Assembly (NCBI RefSeq): GCF_000374845.1
Contig: NZ_KB895414.1
Span: 310,001-374,000 of the forward strand
Length of the DNA stretch: 64,000 nt
From: Paenibacillus terrigena DSM 21567
Lineage (GTDB): Bacteria; Bacillota; Bacilli; Paenibacillales; Paenibacillaceae
Direction of reading: 5' to 3'
Positions within the stretch are counted from its first letter, which is position 1, and every line of letters begins with the position of its first letter. The position numbers and the translations under genes are program-made. Positions 45,363 through 52,450 of the stretch are shown piece after piece. The notes under the pieces were generated by a model that was not told where the DNA came from, ran no database searches, and saw nothing but the letters and a program-made list of their open reading frames with translations.

Positions 45363-45398
45363 ATAACCGAACCCCCAGGTCATAGGGAATTCGGTTAT
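45363..45398 (-). terminator. Terminator of the SorC/Rbs-type sugar operon
   Basis: ATAACCGAA (45363-45371) pairs with TTCGGTTAT (45390-45398), and T5 follows on the minus strand. It lies 13 nt after the kinase stop at 45412. Confidence 0.8.
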
Positions 45399-45411: not shown

Positions 45412-46917
45412 TTAATTTTCTATAAATAAGTTCTTCACAGAAGGATAAATGCTCTTATAACGCTCGAACTTACGTTGATAATGCGCATGAAGCGCATCAT
45501 CTGGCGTATACACCTCTGCCGCCGTTGTAGATAAATATTGATCCGCGAACTCGGTATAGCTATTCACCCAACCCAGTTCAATGAAACCACCAGAAGCCGC
45601 CCCTAGAGCCGGGAGGTATTGCGAATCTTGCGGAACTCGAACTTGGACGCCGAAAATATCCGCGATCATCTGACACCAGACAGGGCTTTTCGTTCCACCG
45701 CCAATGAGAACAAGCGGCTTATGAAGTGCGTTACCATCGCCGAGCTGCTGCTGCACTTGCTTCATCGCGAAGGCTACCCCTTCCAGCACCGCACATCCCA
45801 TCATCGCCTTCGTCGTTGCCTGCTTCAGACCTATAAAACTACCTGTAGCCTGCTGATCTTGAATCGGCGAACGTTCCCCGTTCAGATAGGGCAGGAACAA
45901 GACGTGATTCTCGAGTCGATTGGTCGCCCGAACGGCATCCTCAAACGCTTGATAATTTAAGTTCGATCCATCCGCACCTTCGCCAAACATTGTTACCGCC
46001 CACTGATGTGCATTACCCGCATTAAGCAGCGGTGCAACAGCGATCAACACACCATCCGCCGCATGGGCCAAATGGAATACCCGACTCTCTGCGGGCAGCT
46101 TCTGATTGGACGTCATCCCAATCCATCCTGTCGTCCCAATATAGCCATACATTTCACCAGGAGCCGTTACGCCGGCACCTATGGTCGTTGCTCCAGCATC
46201 GCCAATACCGCATAGCACCTTCGTTCCTGCCCGGAATCCGGTCATCCGCGCAGCTTCTGGATGCACCTCGCCCGCGACCGCTTCCGGTGCCAGAATCGGC
46301 GGCAGCTTCTTCGCATCAAGTGCATAACGCAATAACCAGGCCGATTCCCATTCCCGCATATGAAGGTTCATCATCCCCGTTGTCGCCGCAGTTGTCGCGT
46401 CCGTGACCGCCTGACCCGTAAGATGATAAATGACATAATCTTTGGAGCTGATCAGGTACCAAGCTGTCTTCACATCAAGCTCCGCTTCCCGCTCCTGCAT
46501 CCATAACAGCTTCGCCAACGGCGACGTGCCATCCAAAGCATTCCCGGTCACCTGGAATATCCCCTCATGACCGAGCTCCTGATTCATTCGTGCTGCTTGT
46601 TCTGCAGCACGTCCATCAGAGTAGAGGATGGCAGGCCGGACAGGGAGGCCATCGGCTCGGATGGGAATGATATCTTGCATTTGTCCGCTAAATGTAATGA
46701 GTTCGATGTCATGGGCACGAATTCCGCTGCTCCACCATACATCAGCAATCGTACACACGGCTTCCATCCATTGCTCTGGATATTGTTCGATCCATCCTCC
46801 TTGAAGGAGTGTATGCATCGGAACATCCTGCTCTTGATGTAATCCCCCATGCTTGTCCACCAACACACCTTTGGCATTCGTTGTCCCGATATCAAAAGCA
46901 GCAATGTAGCCCATCAT
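45412..46917 (-). CDS. FGGY family carbohydrate kinase (xylulokinase-like)
   Basis: This 501-residue protein has two actin-fold domains of the FGGY kinases: the ATP phosphate loop DIGTTNAKGVLVDKHG at residue 9, ELITFSGQMQDIIPIRADGL, and the C-terminal signature LVLIGGGTKSPVWCQMIADI. GYIGTTGWIGMTS is the second phosphate motif. It phosphorylates an imported sugar, alditol or ketose. It differs from the XylB at 52451 by clear divergence, so the substrate should differ. The start at 46917 or 46914 is ambiguous (ATGATG behind AAGGAG). It is the last gene of the operon, after the TrpA-like gene. Confidence 0.9.
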   Translation of the reverse strand: MMGYIAAFDIGTTNAKGVLVDKHGGLHQEQDVPMHTLLQGGWIEQYPEQWMEAVCTIADVWWSSGIRAHDIELITFSGQMQDIIPIRADGLPVRPAILYSDGRAAEQAARMNQELGHEGIFQVTGNALDGTSPLAKLLWMQEREAELDVKTAWYLISSKDYVIYHLTGQAVTDATTAATTGMMNLHMREWESAWLLRYALDAKKLPPILAPEAVAGEVHPEAARMTGFRAGTKVLCGIGDAGATTIGAGVTAPGEMYGYIGTTGWIGMTSNQKLPAESRVFHLAHAADGVLIAVAPLLNAGNAHQWAVTMFGEGADGSNLNYQAFEDAVRATNRLENHVLFLPYLNGERSPIQDQQATGSFIGLKQATTKAMMGCAVLEGVAFAMKQVQQQLGDGNALHKPLVLIGGGTKSPVWCQMIADIFGVQVRVPQDSQYLPALGAASGGFIELGWVNSYTEFADQYLSTTAAEVYTPDDALHAHYQRKFERYKSIYPSVKNLFIEN

Positions 46918-46918
46918 C

Positions 46919-47743
46919 TCACTCCTTCATATCTGCAAGCGTTGTGTTCTCTTTCATCTCCGAAATCAGACGGTACAAATAATCCTGCTCCCCCGTCTCG
47001 CATCGTGCTACAAGAACCGATCCTACGACAGCGCCTTCGAAGCCGCTAGCCACGACGGACTTCACGCGGTCCCCCGATCGCAGACCGAACCCGGCAACGA
47101 TCATCGCTGTCTTCGTGAACGTTCTAGCCTTCGCATACAGATCGGACAGATTCGTGCTGGAGTTCGCCAGCGGATTTCCTGTCGTTCCCGTGTAGAGCTG
47201 GGCATAGAGAATGTTGAGCGCACTGCAGACCCGCTCCATCTCTTCGTCCGGAAGCGCATCGTTAACGAATCCAACGACATCTACGCCATGCACCGCTAGG
47301 ACGGACTGCAGCGCGATTTGATCCTCGATGCTCGCATCCGGGATCACCAAACCATCGATCAGACCTGCTTCTGCGAGTTGCAGCGCAAAGCCCTCTTCGA
47401 CGAGCTCCTTCTTGTATCCCATCGCCCAGATCGGCTCTTCCATCTGCTGGCGAAGACGCGTCATATAAGGCATGAGCCAGTCATTGCCCGCTTCGTCCTC
47501 GGCATGTGCTTGAACCCGTTCATGTCCACGCTTAATGACAGCGCCGTCCATAAACGGATTTCTACTCGGAATACCAATCTCGAATATATCGATTCCGGCC
47601 GTCGCGGAATCCTTCACGATCTCAAGGGATTTCTCCACATCCGGATCTCCGGATACGAAGTAGCCAATCAACAGCGCTTCTTGCAATTCTTCAATCCGTT
47701 GCCAAGCTTGTAAGTTTCTCTTGCTGTTAAAATGATTGCTCAT
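46919..47743 (-). CDS. TrpA-like TIM-barrel protein in sugar operon
   Basis: This 274-residue homologue of tryptophan synthase alpha is set among sugar genes. The two catalytic acids of TrpA are kept: Glu in GIDIFEIGIP (position of E49) and Asp in NPFMDGAVIK (position of D60). Phosphate-binding glycines appear as AGFGLRSGDRV and AVVGSVLVARCE. No trpB is nearby. TrpA performs a retro-aldol split releasing glyceraldehyde 3-phosphate, so a sugar-phosphate aldolase is a reasonable inference here. The start at 47743 overlaps the permease stop by 4 nt; the kinase follows 1 nt after its stop, so the three are tightly coupled. Confidence 0.85.
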   Translation of the reverse strand: MSNHFNSKRNLQAWQRIEELQEALLIGYFVSGDPDVEKSLEIVKDSATAGIDIFEIGIPSRNPFMDGAVIKRGHERVQAHAEDEAGNDWLMPYMTRLRQQMEEPIWAMGYKKELVEEGFALQLAEAGLIDGLVIPDASIEDQIALQSVLAVHGVDVVGFVNDALPDEEMERVCSALNILYAQLYTGTTGNPLANSSTNLSDLYAKARTFTKTAMIVAGFGLRSGDRVKSVVASGFEGAVVGSVLVARCETGEQDYLYRLISEMKENTTLADMKE

Positions 47744-48714
47744 CGCGAACCACGTCCGAACTTCTGCATAATAACGGCTGCAATGACGATCAACCCTGTG
47801 ATGACGTCCTGCATAAATGTCGGAACCTGCATAATCGTAAGTCCATTCGCCAGAATCCCGATAATGGCAGCACCCACGAAGGTTCCCCAAATATTCGGTA
47901 CGCCTTCCTTGAACGATGTCATGCCAAGATATGCCGCTGCATAAGCCTGTAGGAACAATCCGTTCCCTGCAGTCGGATGCGCAGAGCCAAGACGCGAAGC
48001 CATAAGTACGCCCGTTAATGCCGCAAGTGCCGCACCTAAGGCGAACGCTGCGTTTTTATTCCATTTCACGCGAAGGCCTGCAATCCGGGAAGCCGATTCA
48101 TTGCCGCCAATCGCATAGAGACGTCTGCCGAAAGCCGTCTGCGTCATCACATACCAGAATAGAATCGTAATCAGCAGCATGACGATGGAGAGAAGCGGTA
48201 TACCGAGCAGCGATTTCTGACCGACCAATCGGAAGCTGTCTGGAATATTCTCGAAGATCGTCGCACCCCCTGTTAACCAGAAGGTGAATCCGCCCAGAAT
48301 GGTACTCATCGCAAGCGTCGTAATGAATGATAATACGCGGAACTGCGTTACGATCCATCCGTTGATGAAGCCGACAACCAGTGCCACAAGAACCGGTGCT
48401 AGAAAAGCGATCCAGATCGGTCCGCCGCTAGCTGCAATTTTCGCCGCAATGACCCCGCCGAGACTTGCAATCGCCCCGATCGATAGGTCAAATTCACTAA
48501 CGGACATGACAATCGTCGCGCCAATCCCAATGATGACGAGGAAGGAAATTTGACGACTAATGTTGATGGCATTATCCAGTGTCGCGAATGAGTCCGGATT
48601 CAATACGCTGAAAATAATCGTGATGATCACACCGGCGATCACCGTGCCATAGGATCTAAATATTTTGCCCCACTCGATAGAAGAAGAGCTTTTAGTTATT
48701 TTCGTAGTTTCCAT
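47740..48714 (-). CDS. Sugar ABC transporter permease (RbsC/BPD_transp_2 family)
   Basis: The protein has 324 residues. Eight to ten hydrophobic segments and the family signature (AIGGNESASRIAGLRV, NGLFLQAYAAAYLGMTSFKE and GVPNIWGTFVGAAIIGILAN) mark it as an RbsC-type permease. It forms a homodimeric channel for a monosaccharide. The start at 48714 follows AAAGGAAG; an earlier ATG at 48732 overlaps the rbsA stop. It is coupled to the upstream ATPase and the downstream TrpA-like gene. Confidence 0.94.
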   Translation of the reverse strand: METTKITKSSSSIEWGKIFRSYGTVIAGVIITIIFSVLNPDSFATLDNAINISRQISFLVIIGIGATIVMSVSEFDLSIGAIASLGGVIAAKIAASGGPIWIAFLAPVLVALVVGFINGWIVTQFRVLSFITTLAMSTILGGFTFWLTGGATIFENIPDSFRLVGQKSLLGIPLLSIVMLLITILFWYVMTQTAFGRRLYAIGGNESASRIAGLRVKWNKNAAFALGAALAALTGVLMASRLGSAHPTAGNGLFLQAYAAAYLGMTSFKEGVPNIWGTFVGAAIIGILANGLTIMQVPTFMQDVITGLIVIAAVIMQKFGRGSR

Positions 48715-48728
48715 GATAGGTCTTCCTT

Positions 48729-50225
48729 TCATCGATTATAGCAAATTTGTAAGAGTTGTTCGGAAGTAGCCTCCCCACCAGGCACTTCAGCCACGATAGT
48801 CCCTTCCCGAAGCACATAAATCCGATCACACAAGTCCAATACTTCGTGAATATCAGAAGAGACATAGACTACCCCGCGCTTATCACGCGCTTGCTGCCTA
48901 AGCAGGCGATGAATTTCTTCGCGCGTCATGACATCAACCGCTTGCGTTGCCTCATCACATAAGAAGAGCTCCGGATTGTTCATCATCGCTTTGGCAAAGA
49001 CGACTTTCTGCTGATTACCTCCACTAAGCTCGGATACGTTCTGCTCACTGGACGTTGCTTTGACATTCATGTGATCCATAAAACGCCGCACTTCGCTCTT
49101 CTCGAACCGCTGCCGCACATAGACTCCCGTTGAGAAATGTTTCAGACGAGGCAGTGTCATATTCTCGCGAATCGTCAGATTCATGATGAGACCTTCCGAT
49201 CTGCGATCTTCAGGGATGAGTACCATACCGTTCTCCAAGGCTTGCTGCGGTGAGGCAATGCACTGCGCTTTCCCTGCGACTGCCATATCACCACTCTGAA
49301 TTGGCCGCGCGCCATAGATCGCTTCGAGTAATTCCGTACGTCCTGCTCCAGCCAGACCGAAGATACCGACAATTTCACCGCGATGAACACGGAAGCTGGT
49401 ATCTCTCACCGTACCATCGACGGTAGATAAGTTTCTCACTTCAAGAAGTACAGGCTCATGCAAGGCATTCGTGCGCTCTTGTGCCGTTGTTCCTTGATAG
49501 TCTGTATCCGTCATATAAGAAATCACTTTCTTGAGATCGGCTTCTTCCCGTTGAAGCGTACCTGCCCACTTGCCGTTCCGGAATACGATAATTCGATCGG
49601 ATAATCGGAAAATTTCCTCCATCCGGTGCGAGACATACAGAATCGCTGTCCCTTGGTCCGTCATCCGCTCAATCAGGCGGAATAGAACTTCCGTCTCCTG
49701 ATCGGTTAACGATGCTGTCGGCTCGTCGAGAATTAGCAGCTTGCAATCCTGCATCATAACCCGCATCAGCTCGAGCATCGTACGTTCTGGCGGGGACATC
49801 TCCTCTGCCGTTTTCGTCAAATCCAACTCGATCCCAAGCTCTTTTTTCACAGCCTCAGCACGTTCCTTCATCTGATTCCACTTGACCCGAAGTCCGAATT
49901 TCAGCTGTGGAAGCGGAAGACCGAGATACAAATTCTCATACCCTGAGAACGAAGGGATTAAATGCCGCTCTTGATGGATTACATGAATGCCCAAACGATG
50001 CGCATCACGCGGTGAATGAATCGTAACGGCTTGTCCATTCCATGCGATGCGACCGCCATCCGGTGTATAGACACCTGTAATAATTTTGATGAACGTCGAT
50101 TTACCTGCGCCATTCTCCCCCACTAGACCCACGACTTCACCTGACGCGATCGAGAGGGAAATGTCCGAGAGGGCGTGATGTAGACCGAACTTCTTATCCA
50201 GTTGTTGAACCTCTAACAGTGACAT
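48729..50225 (-). CDS. Sugar ABC transporter ATP-binding protein (RbsA/MglA type, two ATPase domains)
   Basis: This 498-residue protein has two ABC domains in tandem. The first has GENGAGKSTFIKIITGVY and Walker B LILDEPTASLTD. The second has a degenerate Walker A (GLAGAGRTELLEAIYG), a normal signature (LSGGNQQKVVFAKAMM) and LFLCDEATQAVDV, as in RbsA, MglA and XylG. It energises uptake of a pentose, hexose or autoinducer-like sugar. The start at 50225 follows AGGAGGATGACC. It lies 71 nt after the binding-protein gene across a stem-loop. Confidence 0.95.
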   Translation of the reverse strand: MSLLEVQQLDKKFGLHHALSDISLSIASGEVVGLVGENGAGKSTFIKIITGVYTPDGGRIAWNGQAVTIHSPRDAHRLGIHVIHQERHLIPSFSGYENLYLGLPLPQLKFGLRVKWNQMKERAEAVKKELGIELDLTKTAEEMSPPERTMLELMRVMMQDCKLLILDEPTASLTDQETEVLFRLIERMTDQGTAILYVSHRMEEIFRLSDRIIVFRNGKWAGTLQREEADLKKVISYMTDTDYQGTTAQERTNALHEPVLLEVRNLSTVDGTVRDTSFRVHRGEIVGIFGLAGAGRTELLEAIYGARPIQSGDMAVAGKAQCIASPQQALENGMVLIPEDRRSEGLIMNLTIRENMTLPRLKHFSTGVYVRQRFEKSEVRRFMDHMNVKATSSEQNVSELSGGNQQKVVFAKAMMNNPELFLCDEATQAVDVMTREEIHRLLRQQARDKRGVVYVSSDIHEVLDLCDRIYVLREGTIVAEVPGGEATSEQLLQICYNR

Positions 50226-50256
50226 CCAGGTCATCCTCCTGCCATGGAAGGAATAA

Positions 50257-50277
50257 AGCGGCTGGAGACCAGCCGCT
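50257..50277 (-). promoter_or_regulatory. Stem-loop between binding-protein and ATPase genes of the sugar operon
   Basis: AGCGGCTGG-AGA-CCAGCCGCT, a perfect 9-bp stem, with TTTATT following on the minus strand. As an attenuator it would allow excess synthesis of the binding protein over the membrane components. Confidence 0.65.
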
Positions 50278-50296
50278 CTACCTTCATCCATTTGTG

Positions 50297-51223
50297 TTAT
50301 CCTTGGTCTTTCGTAATCAAGCTTGCTGGTGCGTACAATTCTGTACCTTCAACCGCTTTACCTTGGAATACGAGATCAAGCTGTTGCGCTACGATTTCTG
50401 CCATTCCAGGGAAGTTCTGTTTGACGGTTGCGATCAATGGTGAACCCTTCTTGATCATTTCTACCGCTTGACTGTTGCCGTCGATTCCGATAACAACGAT
50501 ATCTTTACGTCCAGATGCTTCGATCGCTTGTGCTGCACCAATTGCTGGCTCATCCCATCCTGTCCATACCGCTGTGATCGAACCCGGCTCTTTATTCGCG
50601 AGCAATAAGCTCTCCATTTGTTTACGTGCGCTCTCGATTGGCCCAGGAACTTCTACTTGCATTTCCGTTACTTTCTTCACATCTGCGTTCTCGCTTAGCA
50701 TTTGATCAAGGAAAAGCGTACGTTTCAGAACACCTGGATGCGCACGGTACGTTAACGCAACCAAATTCCCTTTTTTGCCGATTGTATCGAATAAGTGCGT
50801 TGTAATCATTTTCGACATTTCCGTATTATCGCTTGTCGCGTTCATCGTCATGCCTTCAATATATCCAGCGTCACAGCCCATAACCGGGATATTCTTCTCT
50901 TTCGCCGATTGAATTTGTGCTTTCAATTGGTTCGGGTCCGTACTTACGATAATAATCGCATCTGTCTTGCTCGCGATGACATCCTCCATGCGGCTAGCTA
51001 ATTGACCTACATCGCCCTTCGTATCGATGACATTGGCTTTCCAGCCATGATCAGCGGCTTGCTTCTTCAGCGCCTCGACCATCTCGTTCGTCGTTACGGA
51101 TGATAAGAATGGCGTCATGATAGACACGTTCTTCTCGCCATCCTTGCTTGAATTACCGCCTGAGCACGCTGCTAGACTAATGATGAAAATGATGGATAAT
51201 AACACGGATACTGCCTTTTTCAT
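50297..51223 (-). CDS. Sugar ABC transporter substrate-binding lipoprotein (RbsB-like)
   Basis: This 308-residue lipoprotein has a signal sequence with lipobox SLAACSGG at residue 19. It has the periplasmic-binding/LacI-like fold of the RbsB group: MVEALKKQAADHGWKANVID, IIIVSTDPNQLKAQIQSAKE, IPVMGCDAGYIEG, VWTGWDEPAIGAAQAIEASG and VIGIDGNSQAVEMIKKGS. The ligand is a sugar or polyol. It is the second gene of the operon, 36 nt after the SorC regulator. Confidence 0.94.
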   Translation of the reverse strand: MKKAVSVLLSIIFIISLAACSGGNSSKDGEKNVSIMTPFLSSVTTNEMVEALKKQAADHGWKANVIDTKGDVGQLASRMEDVIASKTDAIIIVSTDPNQLKAQIQSAKEKNIPVMGCDAGYIEGMTMNATSDNTEMSKMITTHLFDTIGKKGNLVALTYRAHPGVLKRTLFLDQMLSENADVKKVTEMQVEVPGPIESARKQMESLLLANKEPGSITAVWTGWDEPAIGAAQAIEASGRKDIVVIGIDGNSQAVEMIKKGSPLIATVKQNFPGMAEIVAQQLDLVFQGKAVEGTELYAPASLITKDQG

Positions 51224-51258
51224 TATTGTTCCCCCTATTCATTTCTCTAGATATGGTT

Positions 51259-52230
51259 CTATGTAACGGGATGAGCGTGATGCCACTCTAACACAGCCTT
51301 GGCCGTAGCCATATCCGTGACGAGTACATTGACCCATTTCCCTCGCAAGACAGAACATATGGCTGGGACTTTATCCATACCACTCGCGGTTGCGATCACA
51401 TTCGGTATTCGCCGTAATGTCTCCGCACTCATGCCGATCATTCGCTGTTCAGATGGATAAGAAATCACATGACCCTGCTCGTCTAGAAACGAAGTACAGA
51501 TGCCGCCGACCGCGCCCATAGACTTGATCTCATTCATTTCCTTCGTGCCAAAATACCCAAACTTCACAACAGATGCTTCGTCGGTCACTTGACTGATGCC
51601 TACGACAGCCACATTTACCTGATCCCACATGTCCACGACCTTCGATATCTCCGGCTCATTTACAATCGTATCGCGCACTTCTTTGGACCCTACAACCGCG
51701 GGTGCATTGAGCTGCAAATACTTTGCCTTCAACTTCTCTCCAATGACGCGTGCATTCGAATTCGCATGCCATGTTGCGCCTTCAGCGCCCCAGCCTCCGA
51801 TCAACGGAACGATCTGCATATGCTTGCGGCTGAAATAATTCAGTTCTTTGCTGAGCTCAGAGACCGTTCTCCCTGCCATAATCCCTACGGTGTCATAGTC
51901 TTTAAGTACGGATTCAAGCAGTGCGGCGCCCGCTCTTGCAAGCTTCAAATCGACCAAATGCTGTTCTTCTTCTGGCATCTGAATAATAATCACATCATGG
52001 ATTCCGAAGGTTTCGGCAATCACCCTCTCATACACCTGTTCCTCAGAGTACGGGTTGCGAATCGAAATCTGTACGATTCCTTGCGCTTTCGCAGCACTTA
52101 ACATGCGACTGATCTGCGGTCTGGAAATTCCGAGTCTCTCCGCAATTTCTTGTTGATTGAGGCCATCCATGTAGTACAAATGGCTCACTTTGACGAGTAA
52201 CCTCGTTCTTTCTTCTGCGATATCAGTCAT
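51259..52230 (-). CDS. SorC/DeoR-type sugar-responsive transcriptional regulator
   Basis: This 323-residue regulator has an N-terminal HTH (LYYMDGLNQQEIAERLGISR, then PQISRMLSAA, residues 16-45) and a C-terminal sugar-phosphate-binding SorC domain (VGIMAGRTVSELSKELNYFS, IVPLIGGWGAEG, VAVVGISQVTDEA, GGICTSFLDEQG). Family members are released by the phosphorylated sugar of their own pathway, here the product of the FGGY kinase or TrpA-like enzyme. The start at 52230 follows AAGGGGAA. It is the first gene of the operon and has a good promoter at 52288-52316, so autoregulation is likely. Confidence 0.93.
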   Translation of the reverse strand: MTDIAEERTRLLVKVSHLYYMDGLNQQEIAERLGISRPQISRMLSAAKAQGIVQISIRNPYSEEQVYERVIAETFGIHDVIIIQMPEEEQHLVDLKLARAGAALLESVLKDYDTVGIMAGRTVSELSKELNYFSRKHMQIVPLIGGWGAEGATWHANSNARVIGEKLKAKYLQLNAPAVVGSKEVRDTIVNEPEISKVVDMWDQVNVAVVGISQVTDEASVVKFGYFGTKEMNEIKSMGAVGGICTSFLDEQGHVISYPSEQRMIGMSAETLRRIPNVIATASGMDKVPAICSVLRGKWVNVLVTDMATAKAVLEWHHAHPVT

Positions 52231-52287: not shown

Positions 52288-52316
52288 ATCTTAAAGCCAT
52301 TTCATATATTTGACAA
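52288..52316 (-). promoter_or_regulatory. Sigma-A promoter of the SorC/sugar operon
   Basis: On the minus strand TTGTCA (52311-52316) and TAAGAT (52288-52293) are separated by 17 bp. Between the -10 and the start codon lie two GAACA-type repeats about 18 bp apart, a possible SorC operator. Confidence 0.65.
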
Positions 52317-52395: not shown

Positions 52396-52429
52396 AAAAA
52401 AACCCTAATCCAAATGAAATTTGGACTAG
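52396..52429 (-). terminator. Terminator of xylAB
   Basis: CTAATCCAAAT pairs with ATTTGGACTAG (one mismatch, 3-nt loop), followed on the minus strand by a T7 run. It lies 22 nt after the xylB stop. Confidence 0.85.
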
Positions 52430-52450
52430 AGCTTGAGATACAACGTTCAG

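Follow-up and report, generated by a model that had tools for sequence, protein, structure and literature searches.

The genome of Paenibacillus terrigena DSM 21567 carries a cassette of six genes that encode a SorC-type regulator, the solute-binding protein (SBP), double ATPase and permease of a CUT2-type ABC transporter, a homologue of the tryptophan synthase alpha subunit TrpA, and an FGGY-family kinase. It lies in the 64,000-nucleotide stretch that we analysed (contig NZ_KB895414.1, positions 310,001 to 374,000; hereafter the window). Judged by its sequence, this homologue, here called TrpA*, is not a biosynthetic TrpA but probably a TrpB-independent aldolase that acts on the product of the kinase and probably frees glyceraldehyde 3-phosphate (GAP). 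We regard this skeleton, in which the kinase product is split by TrpA* to GAP, as likely, and give indole-3-glycerol or a close analogue about an even chance of being the substrate. The original prediction for this locus had proposed that an imported polyol or sugar is phosphorylated and then split by the TrpA-like enzyme.

TrpA* belongs to a conserved uptake and kinase operon

All six genes lie on the reverse strand of the window, and Pfam and NCBIfam profile matches assign them to the families originally named (Table 1). The last four are closely coupled, as had been claimed: the ATPase and permease genes, and the permease and TrpA* genes, overlap by 4 bp (ATGA), while TrpA* and the kinase gene are separated by 1 bp. 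Because terminator-like hairpins stand on both sides and a promoter-like site precedes sorC, the six genes look like one transcription unit with a predicted promoter and terminators of its own, to which xylAB, upstream, and a GH29 gene, downstream, do not belong.

In 31 genomes across Bacillota, the permease, TrpA* and kinase genes are adjacent in that order, and since the flanks differ from genome to genome, the coupling is more than chance. The full SorC-SBP-ATPase-permease-TrpA*-kinase order is nearly always present, with permease-TrpA*-kinase gaps mostly between -4 and +30 bp. Exceptions are Shimazuella-type loci, in which SorC was undetected by similarity, one rearranged locus (G847), and some loci that end at contig ends. 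A family-level search recovered TrpA* in 13 of 300 genomes; when 84,980 species were scanned, 14 loci emerged, belonging to Paenibacillus, Cohnella, Shimazuella and a Hydrogenibacillus metagenome-assembled genome. Class- and phylum-level searches added further loci, and a search with an SBP profile extended the cassette to other Bacillota classes, including one lineage that we take to be Halanaerobiia-like. Two sets of candidates were discarded, namely plasmid trpA matches, which proved to be ordinary TrpA, and the SBP of Rhizobium sp. BG6 (41%), which lacks the signature and the kinase motifs. One contig (L144; G880 C193) holds a degenerate cassette with truncated SorC and SBP remnants and an in-frame stop, and has neither TrpA* nor a kinase gene.

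TrpA* keeps the TrpA active site and has lost the TrpB interface

TrpA* scores 119 bits against PF00290 (cut-off 27), compared with 301 bits for the canonical TrpA of the same genome, and shares roughly 23-32% identity with its genome's own TrpA. The predicted model is a TIM barrel (pLDDT 87.7), and its nearest solved structures in Foldseek are all TrpA (TM 0.85-0.88). With 102.3 bits against a cut-off of 102.35, it marginally misses the trpA equivalog TIGR00262. At such a score, annotation pipelines may call TrpA* or its relatives tryptophan synthase alpha and thereby credit tryptophan auxotrophs with trpA.

We compared 30 TrpA* with 52 true TrpA sequences, using E. coli numbering. The catalytic set of TrpA comprises Glu49, Asp60, Thr183 and Phe212 (PMC9512447). 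Glu55 and Asp66 of the P. terrigena protein align with Glu49 and Asp60, and Thr188-Gly189, Gly220, Gly241 and Ser242 with the phosphate site, in agreement with the claim that both catalytic acids and the phosphate-site glycines are retained. Glu49, Tyr102, Tyr175, Thr183, Gly184, Gly211, Phe212, Gly213 and Gly234 occur in all 30 TrpA* sequences; position 60 is Asp in 28 and Glu in two, and position 235 is Ser or Thr. Conservation of the catalytic acids (the two Asp-to-Glu exchanges included) and of the phosphate site over such deep divergence makes it very improbable that TrpA* is a regulatory or binding protein instead of an enzyme of the route. By the same alignment the ring pocket is largely kept, position 177 excepted: Met100 is invariant (30/30), position 22 is Tyr or Phe, 127 is aliphatic and 153 is Phe or Leu. 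At 177 the Val of true TrpA gives way to Gln, Pro, Arg, Thr or Met, and at 155 Ala is replaced mostly by polar residues.

The TrpB contacts of TrpA include Asp56, Gln65, Asn66, Asn104 and Leu177 (PMC8187860). Ser55, Asp56, Gln65, Asn104 and Pro132, each present in 51 or 52 of the 52 true TrpA sequences, are mostly lost from TrpA*, and on this comparison the TrpB interface is lost. The phylogenetic check that had been proposed alongside the original prediction points the same way. In a quick maximum-likelihood tree with several long rows, all 52 true TrpA sequences fell on one side of a branch with SH-aLRT 99; the order among deep TrpA* branches is unsure, and the tree places TrpA* outside true TrpA.

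TrpA* occurs in genomes without a detectable trpB

The P. terrigena genome (6.36 Mb, 99.99% complete) encodes two PF00290 proteins, TrpA* and a canonical TrpA, the latter in a trpDCFBA operon on a different contig. No trpB lies in the neighbourhood of the TrpA* cassette, just as first reported. The carriers within the class that were tested all have a trpBA of their own. In G806, G928 and G863, TrpA* is the sole PF00290 protein and trpB is undetected; these are drafts of 93-96% completeness that may miss genes, and the three represent independent families that agree. Because neither trpB nor a second TrpA was detectable in them, the role of TrpA* in these genomes must, on gene content, be other than tryptophan synthesis, and action without TrpB is implied.

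P. terrigena also has a second, full-length trpB without a trpA (contig C1, 114566-115726; 386 aa, 579 bits). It lies near genes for a siderophore-binding-type lipoprotein and an amino-acid permease, and a glycine riboswitch match (L092:11410-11489) lies just 5' of the permease gene, downstream of the orphan; extra trpB copies are patchy in the family.

The existence of this orphan raises the reading that TrpA* is its partner, as a second tryptophan synthase alpha subunit, which we consider scarcely credible. An extra trpB is present in 11 of the 20 carriers, but eight have only the trpB of the trpBA pair, and one (G863) lacks trpB altogether. Among 19 non-carriers, 5 likewise have an extra copy: the orphan does not track with TrpA*. 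In addition, the TrpB-contact residues are lost and the strict operon link of TrpA* is with the kinase and the transporter. The original prediction had named such a pairing, with the protein grouping inside true TrpA, as one of its counter-cases. That case does not hold: an orphan trpB does exist, but TrpA* falls outside true TrpA and nine of the 20 carriers have no orphan.

A proposed route from an aromatic glycerol to GAP

The genes present, their arrangement and coupling, the conserved residues with the intact active site, the lost TrpB interface and the carriers that lack trpB are read directly from sequence. From these we infer a reaction, a succession of steps and, most tentatively, a substrate, as follows. 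The compound taken up by the SBP and ABC transporter would be a neutral aromatic glycerol, with indole-3-glycerol or a near analogue the most likely. Phosphorylation by the FGGY kinase at the terminal hydroxyl of its side chain would give indole-3-glycerol phosphate (IGP), and TrpA* would cleave the ring-C1' bond by a retro-aldol reaction, yielding indole and GAP. Glu55 would serve as general acid/base and Asp66, held by Thr188, as the partner of the ring nitrogen, with Gly189, Gly220, Gly241 and Ser242 forming the phosphate site. GAP would enter glycolysis, indole would be released, used by TrpB or degraded depending on the host, and SorC would sense the substrate or its phosphate. The logic of import, phosphorylation and cleavage in the original prediction stands, because the gene coupling is strict and the active site intact, whereas its simple sugar or polyol substrate has become less likely in view of the aldolase chemistry, the ring pocket and the adjacency to trpBA described below.

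TrpA chemistry involves neither a Schiff base nor a metal, and the indole ring acts as the electron sink. Neither mark of a class I or class II sugar aldolase is present in the 30 TrpA* sequences: the barrel lacks an invariant Lys and, apart from the TrpA residues, has no His/Asp/Glu metal set. The substrate itself would therefore have to act as electron sink in the way that indole does, and one with an indole-like ring would be chemically favoured. Lys111, at the end of beta-4 as in fructose-6-phosphate aldolase, was considered as a Schiff-base lysine and rejected, being Arg, Ser, Gln or Trp in relatives.

These observations bear on a second reading, in which an imported ketose is phosphorylated by a xylulokinase-like FGGY enzyme and split by TrpA*, for example ketohexose 6-phosphate to dihydroxyacetone and GAP as by fructose-6-phosphate aldolase. 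The CUT2 transporter, the SorC regulator and the XylB-like kinase would fit such a sugar, as would the lack of an isomerase in the cassette, the polar residues at TrpA positions 155 and 177 with new His74 and Trp106, and the retention in the SBP of RbsB positions D89, N105, R141, D215 and Q235. We nevertheless consider it doubtful, since the absence of a Schiff-base Lys or metal-ligand set and the mostly kept hydrophobic ring pocket of TrpA* both speak against it, and the SBP and kinase depart from RbsB and xylulokinase. In the SBP, the pyranose-sandwiching Phe15, Phe16 and Phe164 of RbsB are replaced by Thr, Thr and Ile, Asn190 corresponds to Trp223, and His162 is invariant; its score against the RbsB model NF007936 is 73.7 bits (cut-off 337). 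The kinase stays below the xylulokinase cut-off (TIGR01312; 336.8 against 380.25 bits), and xylulokinase His78 is Gln in the cassette kinases and Glu in the L142/L143 branch. A ketose would also leave the cassettes that adjoin canonical trpBA, described next, at odds with the route. No other member of the cassette is as conserved as the SBP (67-97% identity in the core clade, 54% in G863; 19 loci), which suggests one common ligand. A structure search with the SBP returned generic ribose/polyol binders only.

Genome context and a possible link of the cassette to trp and indole genes

Cassettes lacking TrpA* occur in just two lineages of the whole set, and in both they adjoin canonical trpBA. 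In G858 an SBP-ATPase-permease-kinase block follows the trpA of trpDCFBA by 132 bp on the same strand, with no terminator-like site between them. In Nitratireductor a kinase-SBP-ABC block lies beside trpBA in divergent orientation on three plasmids (two regions read; one lineage). Trp genes were found in the flanks of none of the 31 TrpA* cassettes (Fisher p=0.0019 for TrpA*-less versus TrpA* cassettes, lineages taken as independent), and the SBP ligand site of both TrpA*-less lineages is the same as in TrpA* cassettes. Standing beside trpBA, these cassettes are most simply read as using canonical TrpA in place of TrpA*, in which case the kinase product would be IGP or similar.

A further context comes from G090, a Paenibacillaceae genome, where a gene for an isatin-hydrolase homologue (261 bits to 5nmp; approximately 50% identical to isatin hydrolases 5nmp, 5nnb and 4j0n) lies 91 bp 5' of SorC on the same strand. 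Downstream, also on the same strand (L018:491-7968), are genes for the alpha and beta components of an anthranilate/benzoate-type ring-hydroxylating dioxygenase, an acyl-CoA-dehydrogenase-like oxygenase and a short-chain dehydrogenase/reductase (SDR), possibly an aromatic or indole degradation cluster. Known parts of indole degradation include acyl-CoA-dehydrogenase-like indole oxygenases, SDRs, isatin hydrolase and anthranilate dioxygenase (PMC6221969). This context is supporting, not decisive, for indole; no isatin-hydrolase or dioxygenase genes were found beside other cassettes. The same region also holds genes for an AP_endonuc_2 TIM-barrel protein and a CrtO-like FAD enzyme.

The dioxygenase cluster beside this one cassette, and a ring pocket that is kept yet repolarised at 155 and 177, would also suit the same mechanism acting on another aryl or heteroaryl glycerol, such as imidazole-glycerol, a neopterin-like compound or hydroxyphenyl-glycerol from lignin. 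We think this improbable, because the contexts with canonical TrpA and isatin hydrolase specifically favour indole.

Several points weigh against indole-3-glycerol itself. Both the transporter and the kinase belong to families known mostly from sugars, and the changes at positions 177 and 155 mean that the head group may be something other than indole. The trp adjacency comes from only two lineages and the isatin-hydrolase context from one genome, where the units have a terminator and promoters between them. Moreover, free indole-3-glycerol is undocumented as a common environmental compound in the accessible literature. On balance, we see it as a toss-up whether the cassette is a widespread, hitherto undescribed module for import and phosphorylation of indole-3-glycerol or another aryl glycerol, with a dedicated TrpB-free TrpA as carbon-harvesting aldolase. 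The chemistry of tryptophan synthase would then serve catabolism, with ties in places to the breakdown of indole or to the trp operon.

Relation to known systems

Textbooks present TrpA as one subunit of a channelled bienzyme. TrpA* resembles it in fold, in Glu49, Asp60, Tyr175 and Thr183, in the phosphate site and in the probable GAP product, but differs in having no trpB partner and no TrpB interface, in its separate branch and in its place in an uptake and kinase operon. If the proposal is true, this TrpB-free clade would offer a clear example from nature of biosynthetic chemistry put to catabolic use. Stand-alone, TrpB-free IGP lyases are known from plants (BX1 and IGL), and TrpB-free IGP lyase activity also occurs in some ordinary bacterial TrpA, for example that of C. 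glutamicum (PMC9100643). These TrpB-independent retro-aldolases of the TrpA type probably share the chemistry of TrpA*, but TrpA*, which is bacterial, is tied to import and phosphorylation and would thus be catabolic or salvaging instead of biosynthetic.

The cassette also recalls the Lsr (autoinducer-2) and rhamnulose/fuculose-type routes, with a SorC-type regulator (in Lsr), a CUT2 transporter, an FGGY kinase and then a cleaving enzyme. Unlike them, the conserved cassette contains no further enzyme genes, LsrF and LsrG included, its aldolase is a TrpA homologue without a Schiff-base Lys or metal, and its kinase scores far under the LsrK cut-off (133.6 against 528 bits). The nearest solved kinase is the 'xylulokinase' of C. 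violaceum (3hz6), which has the GQMQ and YSD motifs common to the cassette kinases; its substrate is, to our knowledge, unproven, and it may be misnamed.

In the open-licence literature we found no description of a TrpA-type sugar aldolase, an indole-glycerol kinase or a dedicated TrpA homologue within an operon for uptake and phosphorylation. If true, the proposed route would stand next to tryptophanase as a second bacterial way to indole, a signal molecule, and would define an unrecognised environmental nutrient.

Features of the cassette

Coordinates are collected in Table 1. The neighbouring xylAB and GH29 fucosidase genes were considered as members of the operon and rejected, as terminators lie between and they are absent beside the cassette in other genera.

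Table 1. The TrpA* cassette and its predicted signals (window positions)
Feature	Position	Strand	Remarks
SorC/DeoR-type regulator, Sugar-bind domain	51259..52230	-	PF04198; ATG at 52230, AAGGGG 5' of start
CUT2-type SBP, lipoprotein-type	50297..51223	-	PF13407
RbsA-type double ATPase	48729..50291	-	PF00005; conserved start probably 50234
RbsC-type permease	47740..48732	-	PF02653
TrpA* (stand-alone TrpA-type aldolase, predicted), 274 aa	46919..47743	-	PF00290
FGGY kinase, GQMQD..YSDGR..GDAG subfamily	45412..46917	-	PF00370/PF02782
Sigma-70-like promoter 5' of SorC, TTGTCA-17-TAAGAT	52288..52316	-	consensus match only
Terminator-like hairpin between xylB and cassette	52400..52434	-	
Terminator-like hairpin 3' of kinase gene	45363..45398	-

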